A stretch of DNA of 64,000 bases from Terrihabitans soli. GTDB lineage: Bacteria > Pseudomonadota > Alphaproteobacteria > Rhizobiales > Methylopilaceae. This document shows positions 42,831-46,266 of the stretch, piece by piece. Below the pieces are notes generated by a model, which was given only the letters and a program-made list of their open reading frames with translations, had not been told where the DNA came from and made no database searches. Where the stretch lies: assembly GCF_014191545.1 (NCBI RefSeq), contig NZ_AP023361.1:1578501-1642500 (forward strand), given 5' to 3'. The translations under genes and the position numbers were made by a program. The stretch's first letter is position 1; every line of letters starts with the position of its first letter.

Positions 42831-42969
42831 CACGTTCCGGCTCGCGCCGAACGGCGCCGCCTTCGAACATGTCGAAGGCGGCGGTTTCAATTTCAACGTC
42901 GAGATCGGCAATCCCCTGGCGGGATTGATCGTCCGCTATCGCGGCTGGCTTATTCCCGAACCGGCCTAG
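42829..42969 (+). pseudogene. 3' remnant of a DUF4166-type gene
   Basis: In another frame than the DUF502 gene, 46 codons read DTFRLAPNGAAFEHVEGGGF, then FNFNVEIGNPLAGLIVRYRG and WLIPEPA before a stop. The segment F-x-F-x-V-x-I-x-x-P-L-x-G-x-x-V-x-Y-x-G-W-L is how DUF4166 domains end. No start or upstream domain exists; the preceding sequence is the DUF502 gene. Its stop overlaps the convergent subtilase stop. I interpret it as a leftover joined to the DUF502 gene by a deletion. Confidence 0.6.
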
Positions 42970-44558
42970 CGCGGCGTCGTGCTCGTCGAGAAACCGGCGC
43001 GCGTCGGATTGGCGGCGTTGGCCGCCGGCGGGGTCATGGGCGTTGCCGGAGGTGTCGCGTTCGAAATCATCGGCGTCGGCTCCATGGTTTCGAGCGCCGC
43101 CACGCTGTCGACGAGGCCCGCGCCGAAATCCTTGTCGCGGCCCTTGATGCCGAGATCCTTGGCGGTGCCGACCAGCACGGTCAGAACTTCCTTGGGCGTC
43201 GTATTCGGATTGCGGGCGATCATCAGTGCCGCCATGCCACTGACATAGGCGGCCGAGATCGAGGTGCCGGAGGAAATCGCATAGGCTTTCTTCGGCGCGG
43301 CCACCAGAATGTCGACGCCAGGAGCTGCGACCGTGAGATAGGTGCCGCGATTGGCGAATGTCGTCACGCCATCGGTGGCATCGGTCGAGGTGACAGCGAT
43401 GACGCCGGGTTCAGCGCCCGGATAGAGCGGCGGCGATTTCGGACCGGCATTGCCGGCCGCCGCGACAACGACGATGCCGCGGGCGATCGCCGCCTTGATG
43501 ACGCGCGACATCAGCTCATCCTTCGGACCGGCGAAGGACAGGTTGAACACGCGCGCGCCTTTGCTCGCCGCCCAATCCATGCCGCGCACGACGTCGAAAG
43601 TCGTGCCGTCCTGGGTTTTGCCGGTGGGCGAGAAAGCGCGGACATTGAGAATGCGTGCACCGGGCGCAACGCCCTGCAGATTGCCGTGGCCTACAATGGC
43701 GCCGGTCATGCCGGTGCCGTGCGCGTGCGGCTCGAACTTGCCGCCGACGGCGTCGAAAGTTTCGACAAAGGACCCCTTGAGGTCGGGATGCGAGGTATCG
43801 GCGCCGCTGTCGATGACGGCGACCAGAACGTTCTCGCCGCGCGTCACAGTGTGCGCTTCAGGAAGTTTCAGCTTGGTGGTCGCGTATTGCGGCGGCACGC
43901 TGTTGTTTGCGGCCTGCTGCAGCGCAAAGAGGCGATTGTAATGCGCGCCCGCGACACGGCTGTCGGCGGAGATCGCGGCGACAACCTGGTCGACCGGACG
44001 GCCGTTCGGAATACGCCAGCGGTAAATACGGGTGTTGAGAAGCGAGATTTCCGTCGAGCCGAGTTTCTGGATGCCCTGCGCTGAGGCAAGCGCATCGACT
44101 TCGCTTTCCGGTGTCGACAACGGAACTTCGACCAGCACCTCGTTCGGCACGAAATCGCGGCGCGCAACGGGCGGTGTGCCGCCGGCCTTTTCGGGCGTCT
44201 TCTTCGGCTTGGCCTGCTTCACCGGCTTTTTCGTCGGAGCGCCCATCGGCTCCTCGTAATATTCCGGCGGATAGTAATAGGTGTCGACCTGCGGGATGAC
44301 CTTGATCTTCGGGCGGCAGAAATCCGCAAGGCCCGCATAGCATTTGTCGGTGTGGAACCGGTCACCGCCTTTGCCGCTGCCGCCGCCGCCGCGACTGCGA
44401 CCCTGGTTCTGACTCAAAAAGTGCCCGCCGCCGAAACCGAAATTGGCGGAGAACTGCGCCTTGGCATCGCTTGCCGAGACGGAGGTGAAAGCGATCCCGA
44501 TGGGCGCGGCAATGGCCGCAGCCAGAGCGGCGCGGATAAGCACGGTGACAGCGTTCAT
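42966..44558 (-). CDS. Secreted S8-family serine peptidase (subtilase) of a sigma/anti-sigma operon
   Basis: A 530-residue subtilisin-type protease. Signal peptide about residues 1-34; a Gly-rich stretch and a Lys/Pro-rich linker follow. A prodomain-like region (about 140-210, VLVEVPLSTPESEVDALA onward) precedes the catalytic domain. Triad: Asp250 in VAVIDSGADTSHPDL, His280 in HAHGTGMTGA, Ser433 in SGTSISAAYVSG. Oxyanion Asn370 sits in AAAGNAG. The usual His-Pro after the catalytic Ser region is changed (AAYVSG for APHVSG). It lies 21 nt after the anti-sigma gene in the same operon. The prodomain region resembles the C-terminal domain of that anti-sigma factor. Confidence 0.9.
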   Translation of the reverse strand: MNAVTVLIRAALAAAIAAPIGIAFTSVSASDAKAQFSANFGFGGGHFLSQNQGRSRGGGGSGKGGDRFHTDKCYAGLADFCRPKIKVIPQVDTYYYPPEYYEEPMGAPTKKPVKQAKPKKTPEKAGGTPPVARRDFVPNEVLVEVPLSTPESEVDALASAQGIQKLGSTEISLLNTRIYRWRIPNGRPVDQVVAAISADSRVAGAHYNRLFALQQAANNSVPPQYATTKLKLPEAHTVTRGENVLVAVIDSGADTSHPDLKGSFVETFDAVGGKFEPHAHGTGMTGAIVGHGNLQGVAPGARILNVRAFSPTGKTQDGTTFDVVRGMDWAASKGARVFNLSFAGPKDELMSRVIKAAIARGIVVVAAAGNAGPKSPPLYPGAEPGVIAVTSTDATDGVTTFANRGTYLTVAAPGVDILVAAPKKAYAISSGTSISAAYVSGMAALMIARNPNTTPKEVLTVLVGTAKDLGIKGRDKDFGAGLVDSVAALETMEPTPMISNATPPATPMTPPAANAANPTRAGFSTSTTPR

Positions 44559-44579
44559 GACCGCTCTCCCTGATCTAGT

Positions 44580-45260
44580 TTAATTCGAAGCGGCGGCGAC
44601 GAAGCGGACGACGTCCGGCTTATCGCGCAGCAGCTCGATGATCTTGTCCACGCCAGCCTGGTCGATCGTGCTCGGGCCGATCTTGACCCGGTAGAGGCCC
44701 GCTTCCGGACCGTTGACGATCGTGCCGCCGGCCTGCTTCAGCAGGCCTTCAATATCGCCCACTGTAGCAGTCGGCTGGAAATTGACCAGAAGCTGCGGAC
44801 CGGGGGCCGCAATCGGGTCGATTGTGGTGGCGAGGGTGGTGTCGCCTCCTTCCCCCTGCGGGGCAATGTTGGAGACGATGAAACCCGCCTGCACGGCGAT
44901 GATGAGCGCCGCCGCCATGCCGGCAAAGGCGAGGGTGCGCGGGCGCATGGCTTCGGCCTTTTCGGCAAACCAGTTCGACAGGCTGAACTTCGGCGCGTAG
45001 GCGCGCGGGTTCTTCGCGATCTCCGCGTCGATCCCGGCAAAAAGCTTGTCGGCGACACGGCGCGAAGGCGCCGCGATGCTTTCATTAGCGAGCAGCGTTT
45101 CCGCCGCTTCGTCGCGCACATAATCGAGGCGCTGCTGAAGTTCCGGATCGCTGGCGATGGCCGCAGCGACACGACGCGTTTCGGACGCACTCAACGTGCC
45201 CGCCGCATACCAGGGCAGGAGCAGAGAAATCTCGTCTTTTTCGTCCTGGGTCATGTTCAT
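44580..45260 (-). CDS. Membrane anti-sigma factor with prodomain-like periplasmic tail
   Basis: A 226-residue single-pass membrane protein. The cytoplasmic N-terminal part (ISLLLPWYAAGTLSASETRR) is typical of anti-sigma factors. One helix follows (about 109-131, LAFAGMAAALIIAVQAGFIV). The periplasmic domain, about 157-224, begins QLLVNFQPTATVGDIEGLLK and continues GGTIVNGPEAGLYRVKIG and VDKIIELLRDKPDVVRFVAA. That domain lines up with the prodomain-like region of the downstream subtilase. I chose the ATG overlapping the sigma stop (TGATG) because GAGG lies 9 nt upstream; an ATG 9 nt earlier has no room for a ribosome site. Confidence 0.82.
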   Translation of the reverse strand: MNMTQDEKDEISLLLPWYAAGTLSASETRRVAAAIASDPELQQRLDYVRDEAAETLLANESIAAPSRRVADKLFAGIDAEIAKNPRAYAPKFSLSNWFAEKAEAMRPRTLAFAGMAAALIIAVQAGFIVSNIAPQGEGGDTTLATTIDPIAAPGPQLLVNFQPTATVGDIEGLLKQAGGTIVNGPEAGLYRVKIGPSTIDQAGVDKIIELLRDKPDVVRFVAAASN

Positions 45261-45832
45261 CACGGCCATCCTCGGTCGATGCCGGCGGATTTGAGCAGTT
45301 CGGTCAGCCGCTTGCGCGCATAGAAAAGGCGCGTCTTCACGGTGTTTTCCGGAATTCCGAGGATCTCGCTCGCCTCTTCCACGGTCTTCTCGTGGTAGTA
45401 GACGAGATCGACGATCTCCTGATGTTCCGGGGACAGCGACTTCAGGCACTCACGCAGAGCCTGGGCCTTGTCCTTTTTCTGGAGCGCCACTTCCGGCGTG
45501 TCCGCATCGTCCTCAATGGCTTCTGCGGCTTCGTCGTCCAGTTCGCCTTCGCTTTTCTTGCGGAGAGAACTGAGCGCCTTGAACCTTGCGATCGAGAGGA
45601 GCCAGGTCGAAACACTGGATCTGCCTTCGAACTTTCCGGCCTGGCGCCAAACGTCCAGAAAAACCTCGCTGATCAAATCCTCCGCGTTAGCTTCGTTGCG
45701 TACGAGCCTGAGCACGAACCGGAACACCCGCACATGGTGACGCGCGAATAATACCTGCATCGCGAGCTTGTCGCCGGAGGCTATCCGGCTGATCAAGATC
45801 TCGTCCGATGTCGCTGTTTGTGCGGCGGCCAC
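45260..45832 (-). CDS. ECF-type RNA polymerase sigma factor
   Basis: About 190 residues with sigma-70 regions 2 and 4. Region 2: ISRIASGDKLAMQVLFARHH, then DLISEVFLDVWRQAGKFEG and STWLLSIARFKALS. An acidic linker (DDEAAEAIEDDADTPEVALQ) leads to region 4: LSPEHQEIVDLVYYHEKTVE, then IPENTVKTRLFYARKRLTEL. I chose the GTG giving VAAAQTATSDE. The frame continues upstream to an ATG at 45958, but that ATG sits in the loop of a terminator and the stretch between has AT-rich third positions unlike coding sequence. The anti-sigma gene follows, overlapping by 1 nt. Confidence 0.88.
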   Translation of the reverse strand: MAAAQTATSDEILISRIASGDKLAMQVLFARHHVRVFRFVLRLVRNEANAEDLISEVFLDVWRQAGKFEGRSSVSTWLLSIARFKALSSLRKKSEGELDDEAAEAIEDDADTPEVALQKKDKAQALRECLKSLSPEHQEIVDLVYYHEKTVEEASEILGIPENTVKTRLFYARKRLTELLKSAGIDRGWP

Positions 45833-45942
45833 GGCTCTTGCTTGCTCGCTTATTGGTCGCGGGAGGATGGCATTGGGTTCAACGCCGGGGAGCTTGGTAT
45901 AAAACTTTTGTTTCGGGAAGGTTTCGTCTTGAACGGGAACGG

Positions 45943-45993: not shown

Positions 45994-46266
45994 TCAATAG
46001 CAAATCTTCTTTTTCGTCCAGACCCAGCCGCCGAGATAAGGGTCGAACACCTTGACCGACTTCTTGTAGCAGCTCGGGCCGCCCCAATAGGTGTTGTAAT
46101 AGCCGGGGCCGTAGCCGCCGAAGCCGAAGCCGCCGCCACCGAAATGGACGGAAACGCCACCATGGCCATGACCATGGCCGCCATGGGCCGAAGCTGAGGA
46201 CGGGATGAGGGCGGCAGCGCCAAGCGTCAGAGCGGCAGCGGCGCCAATGAGGGTCTTGCGAAGCAT
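45994..46266 (-). CDS. Small secreted His/Gly-rich protein
   Basis: A 90-residue protein with a signal peptide (LIGAAAALTLGAAALIPSSASA). After cleavage come a metal-binding-looking stretch HGGHGHGHGG, a Gly/Tyr-rich stretch (GGGGFGFGGYGPGYYNTYWG), and a C-terminal domain with two cysteines (SCYKKSVKVFDPYLGGWVWT, KKKICY) that could form a disulfide. It may chelate Ni, Zn or Cu in the periplasm, but no metal transporter is adjacent. It has its own terminator. I do not recognise a named family. Confidence 0.78.
   Translation of the reverse strand: MLRKTLIGAAAALTLGAAALIPSSASAHGGHGHGHGGVSVHFGGGGFGFGGYGPGYYNTYWGGPSCYKKSVKVFDPYLGGWVWTKKKICY

Follow-up and report, generated by a model that had tools for sequence, protein, structure and literature searches.

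A subtilase prodomain homologue as the tail of an anti-sigma factor encoded beside a secreted S8 protease in Terrihabitans soli

In Terrihabitans soli contig NZ_AP023361.1, three adjacent genes on the minus strand encode an extracytoplasmic function (ECF) sigma factor, an anti-sigma factor and a secreted subtilase (peptidase family S8). They lie within a stretch of 64,000 nucleotides (nt) (positions 1,578,501 to 1,642,500, RefSeq assembly GCF_014191545.1), the whole of which is termed the window, and span window positions 45832 down to 42966. The C-terminal tail of the anti-sigma factor (amino acids (aa) 154-226) is homologous to subtilase prodomains, and tail and protease gene remain linked across many genomes. 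The favoured interpretation, with a probability of roughly 0.55, is that the tail is a docking domain for the co-encoded protease and that the linker between membrane and tail is its cut site, rather than the tail acting purely by inhibition; as part of this, the genes would form a unit for signalling at the cell envelope, with a protease dedicated to it.

An earlier note on this DNA, made from the sequence alone, described the three genes as overlapping or nearly touching, and its coordinates are right: one base is common to the sigma factor stop codon and the anti-sigma ATG, and 21 nt separate the anti-sigma stop codon from the protease start. The anti-sigma factor has its anti-sigma domain at the N-terminus and a single membrane segment (aa 111-129, the only strong hydrophobic stretch by hydropathy), followed by a short linker and the tail. 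In the protease, an apparent signal peptide and a long low-complexity region precede the prodomain and the catalytic domain.

Homology of the anti-sigma tail to subtilase prodomains

Pairwise BLAST of the tail against the protease gave nothing significant (E 1.2 or worse), and no Pfam family, PF22148 (Fervidolysin_NPro-like, Fervidolysin N-terminal prodomain) included, matches the window tail by itself. The tail is counted in PF22148 because close relatives match, not on its own sequence. Among the relatives, PF22148 is matched by 27 of 61 anti-sigma tails and also by 20 of 26 cognate protease prodomains. Six tested tails exceed the cut-off of 21 bits, at loci L256 (39.1 bits), L184 (27.9), L186 (25.3), L175 (24.7), L171 (22.0) and L191 (21.4). 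Unlike a PF22148 prodomain that precedes an S8 catalytic domain in the same chain, the tail occupies the C-terminal end of the anti-sigma factor.

Comparison of tail and prodomain profiles with hhalign gave 85.9%, 88.9% and then 90.3% over 64 columns, in register. This bears out the earlier note's claim that the tail and the pre-catalytic region of the protease share the same order of elements. The real score of 33.8 compares with a mean of 9.65 (standard deviation 1.95, maximum 16.6) for 300 column-shuffled decoys, and with 10.4 for a reversed-profile control. Searching the PDB by sequence with the tail and prodomain profiles returned no relevant match, and the families listed for the alignments of tail and prodomain did not include Inhibitor_I9 (PF05922).

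The AlphaFold models of the tail (predicted local distance difference test, pLDDT, 87.1) and of the prodomain (pLDDT 90.7) share one fold, with elements in the order E-H-E-E-H-E; predictions of different folds, which the earlier note had named as refuting its proposal, were thus not obtained. Among solved structures, the top Foldseek match of the tail is the prosegment of subtilisin BPN' (1spb_P; E 0.011, probability 1.00) and the third is 1scj_B; other ferredoxin-like proteins occur in the same list, and the E-values are modest (about 0.01), as is to be expected of a small, common fold. With the prodomain model, the prodomains of Aspergillus alkaline protease and PC1/3 are among the top matches. 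The proposal that the anti-sigma factor carries a prodomain-like module thus holds on profile homology, PF22148 matches in relatives and predicted fold.

Pfam SPOR (PF05036) was the only competing family with several matches, in 9 of 61 tails (best E 1.4e-4). It is highly improbable that the anti-sigma factor ends in a peptidoglycan-binding domain of the SPOR type, since PF22148 matches more tails, with a stronger best match; the hhalign comparison with SPOR reaches 54.6% over only 29 columns, out of register, and SPOR structures are absent from the 50 best Foldseek matches of the tail. This identity was rejected on the alignment and the lack of structural matches.

Conservation of the three genes

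The anti-sigma factor is present in 37 of 150 relatives, and in this set the sigma, anti-sigma and S8 genes lie on one strand at essentially all loci that are not truncated by a contig end. A wider survey, with class, phylum and organism-named sets added, yielded 157 non-redundant loci; one locus truncated by a contig end and two with a weak tail were set aside from the tail-less count. An S8 gene lies within 3 kb of 116 of 132 tail-bearing anti-sigma genes, on the same strand in 112 (102 downstream and 10 upstream) and on the opposite strand in four, so that the three-gene arrangement is indeed widely conserved. Since genomes carry only about two S8 genes, chance adjacency is negligible. The linkage of tail and protease survives rearrangement, as the 10 upstream cases demonstrate. 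Only three of 22 tail-less anti-sigma factors have an S8 gene within this distance (L107, L110 and L126); at these loci it lies near an ECF pair whose anti-sigma factor has a different, tail-less ectodomain.

Sixteen tail-bearing loci lack a nearby S8 gene. Several are at a contig end (L036, L052, L064 and L164), four have a caspase gene (L093, L094, L100 and L101), and the genome of L148 encodes a 50%-identical protease elsewhere. Tail-bearing pairs without a nearby protease exist in small number, and their tails are related; the earlier note had held that pairs without the protease would tell against it if their tails were unrelated. In three Bradyrhizobium loci (L139, L147 and L153), the sigma factor, anti-sigma factor and tail are kept and the nearby protease gene is missing; no S8 match was found in the genomes of L139 and L147, and only a weak one in that of L153. 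At L147, a 20-aa match to the protease C-terminus directly follows the anti-sigma stop codon, and looks like a remnant of protease deletion.

In the S8-linked set, the catalytic Asp, His and Ser are invariant at every aligned position. This unbroken triad argues that proteolysis, and not binding alone, is under selection. The oxyanion-hole Asn position is occupied by another residue in L187, L188, L190, L254, L256, L259, L261 and L262, where misalignment is possible.

The linker motif and caspase-linked relatives

Most S8-linked anti-sigma factors keep the motif [YF]-x-[TVL]-[AL]-[STG], for example YQTAS, in the linker between membrane and tail. A broader test pattern is found in 102 of 132 S8-linked linkers, compared with 12% of shuffled linkers and 5% of cytoplasmic windows. 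The preference of subtilisins for an aromatic or large hydrophobic residue at P4 makes a subtilase cut after the Ala of the motif plausible. At L269, L270, L272 and L273, the tail occurs with a YRTLS-type linker, and no S8 or caspase gene was found within about 6 kb.

At ten loci (L093, L094, L100, L101, L248, L250, L266, L267, L268 and L271), the S8 gene is replaced by a Pfam-confirmed caspase (Peptidase_C14). These are in Burkholderiales-type genomes, the order being judged from named relatives. The caspase gene directly follows or overlaps the anti-sigma gene at six of the ten. In total, 14 caspase-linked linkers are available from these loci, including those of tail-bearing membrane paralogues without an anti-sigma domain. 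None contains the S8-type motif, and all 14 contain the Arg pattern [TVMFKAR]R[GNAST] (TRGA, MRGA, FRGT and VRNV are examples), which is found in 19 of the 132 S8-linked linkers. The non-metazoan C14 proteases that have been characterised show a strict preference for Arg or Lys at P1 (PMC5756287). When linker motif was tested against protease class with correction for phylogeny, power was lacking, with one pair on well-supported branches. The correlation reflects few switches and not independent replication, and is suggestive.

At L093, L100, L266 and L267, additional tail-bearing membrane proteins without an anti-sigma domain are encoded between or near the sigma and anti-sigma genes and the caspase gene. 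They carry the same Arg-Gly linker, and are possibly further caspase substrates or regulators.

Proposed mechanism and alternative explanations

In the favoured interpretation, the ECF sigma factor would be kept at the inner membrane by the anti-sigma factor, whose periplasmic tail copies the subtilase prodomain fold and would dock the co-encoded periplasmic S8 protease and possibly also restrain it. Once active or released, the protease would cut the membrane-proximal linker at its conserved motif and so begin regulated intramembrane proteolysis; general proteases could then degrade the remaining anti-sigma factor and free the sigma factor. The earlier note had suggested that the protease could be held by the anti-sigma factor or could cleave it. 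Cutting is favoured over holding because the linker motifs are conserved and are changed where a caspase replaces the S8 protease.

A purely inhibitory role would have the tail act as a prodomain in trans, holding the protease inactive and tethered to the membrane, with the anti-sigma factor not cut by it; a signal displacing the tail would both free the protease and alter the anti-sigma factor. The tail is homologous to inhibitory prodomains, and stand-alone propeptide-like inhibitors of subtilases are known (PMC6993865). However, this tail also persists beside caspases, enzymes that lack a subtilisin active site, so it cannot be an S8 inhibitor only; moreover, the protease already has its own prodomain, and the conserved linker motif would be left unexplained. 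This explanation is considered unlikely. A similar degree of doubt attaches to the suggestion that the protease is a regulon member and envelope effector of a self-activating sigma factor, that the tail is an independent sensor or shield sharing only the ferredoxin-like fold, and that the first cut is due to some unlinked protease. Effectors are often encoded in self-regulated ECF operons, some pairs lack an S8 gene, and many unrelated ferredoxin-like folds appear in the Foldseek list of the tail. Nevertheless, the match of the tail is specific to the prodomain family (reaching 39 bits), and the tail predicts the protease, which is rare beside tail-less anti-sigma factors.

Several observations weigh against docking and cutting by the co-encoded protease. 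The linker motif was defined after inspection of the same sequences, and the window protein itself has a variant, TTLATT, in which the aromatic residue is absent. The motif persists in the absence of a nearby S8 gene in Bradyrhizobium (L147) and Burkholderiales (L269-L273), where another protease may cut or the motif may have another role. Among the caspase-linked loci, the caspase gene is 2-6 kb away at L093, L100, L266 and L267, and the link is weaker there. Lastly, the anti-sigma tree has four changes of protease class on the best tree, of which one is forced by well-supported branches.

A broader generalization of docking and cutting can be put forward tentatively, with the odds somewhat against it: a modular family in which a prodomain-derived docking tail is combined with a linker cut site matched to the protease class of the operon ([YF]xTAS for subtilases, Arg for caspases), the two having been swapped together in evolution.

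Organization of the locus in the window

The features of the locus are listed in Table 1. Co-encoding with an ECF sigma factor and the single transmembrane segment are features that the anti-sigma factor shares with class I (zinc-finger type) anti-sigma factors; its zf-HC2 score is 15.7 bits, under the cut-off of 22.2, and relatives reach 44 bits. Both the catalytic domain and the Asp/His/Ser triad assign the protease to family S8.

Table 1. Features of the sigma factor, anti-sigma factor and protease genes, by window position
Feature	Position	Strand	Basis and remarks
ECF sigma factor gene	45260..45832	-	GTG start at 45832; NCBIfam NF009168 (PRK12515) 328 bits, cut-off 236; Pfam Sigma70_r2 and r4
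Anti-sigma factor gene, 226 aa	44580..45260	-	NF052375 antisigma E 2.3e-10 over aa 14-135, below its cut-off
Cytoplasmic anti-sigma domain, about aa 8-85 (EIxxLLPWYxxGxL...)	45006..45239	-	Alignment; Cys/His zinc motif absent in this member
Transmembrane segment, aa 111-129	44874..44930	-	Hydropathy; conserved hydrophobic block, invariant Gln124
Linker motif TTLATT, aa 141-146; putative protease cut site	44823..44840	-	Replaces family [YF]-x-[TVL]-[AL]-[STG]
Prodomain-like anti-sigma tail, aa 154-226	44583..44801	-	AlphaFold, Foldseek, hhalign; PF22148 in relatives
Secreted S8 (subtilase) protease, 530 aa, apparent N-terminal signal peptide	42966..44558	-	Pfam Peptidase_S8 157 bits; sequence
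N-terminal prodomain of the protease, about aa 136-212	43923..44153	-	PF22148 17.4-21.2 bits (cut-off 21); AlphaFold pLDDT 90.7; Foldseek
S8 catalytic domain; Asp250, His280, Ser433	43116..43838	-	Pfam; triad in alignment

Upstream of the sigma factor gene (window 45833-45930), TTGAACC is followed about 15 bases on by GCGACC, an arrangement kept in three same-genus relatives that could be a self-regulated ECF promoter. In these three relatives the operon adjoins recG, with glmS nearby, and in two of them a DUF502 gene lies between the protease gene and glmS. Just upstream of the operon in the window (45994-46266, minus strand) is a gene for a 90-aa secreted-looking Gly/His-rich protein (HGGHGHGHGG), which was not found by tblastn in the loci of relatives that were searched.

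Comparison with known systems

An earlier description combining these features was not found in the literature searched, which did not extend to the main ECF classification paper, where an S8 neighbour is possibly mentioned. In many Pseudomonadota, a likely protease for the anti-sigma factor can be found in the same operon, and a candidate docking domain and cut site can be named. If the favoured interpretation is right, the subtilase prodomain is used outside proteases and free inhibitors, and bacterial caspases gain a testable role.

The putative pathway resembles the sigmaE-RseA-DegS-RseP system of E. coli, in which the periplasmic part of a single-pass anti-sigma factor is cut by a serine protease and an ECF sigma factor is released, steps that here are inferred. 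In contrast to DegS, an HtrA/PDZ protein, the protease of this locus is a subtilase that has a prodomain of its own; it is encoded beside the anti-sigma factor, which, unlike RseA, has a prodomain-like tail.

The prodomain fold is likewise found apart from a protease chain in Plasmodium SUB1-ProM, Toxoplasma MIC5, Pleurotus peptidase A inhibitor 1 and yeast peptidase B inhibitor, and SUB1-ProM, like the tail, is encoded next to subtilase genes (PMC6993865). Unlike these stand-alone propeptide-like inhibitors, the module described here forms part of a membrane anti-sigma factor, where it may serve for docking or as a substrate.

In the CRISPR type III-E Csx29-Csx30-CASP-sigma system, a caspase-fold (CHAT) protease cuts the inhibitor of an ECF-like sigma factor (PMC10028731). 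That system is RNA-triggered, with no prodomain-like domain described, and bears chiefly on the variants linked to caspases. ECF54 sigma factors have conserved subtilase and CHAT neighbours (PMC8999054), a likeness to the present trio; the ECF54 groups are without an anti-sigma factor, whereas the locus described here encodes one, with a prodomain-like tail.
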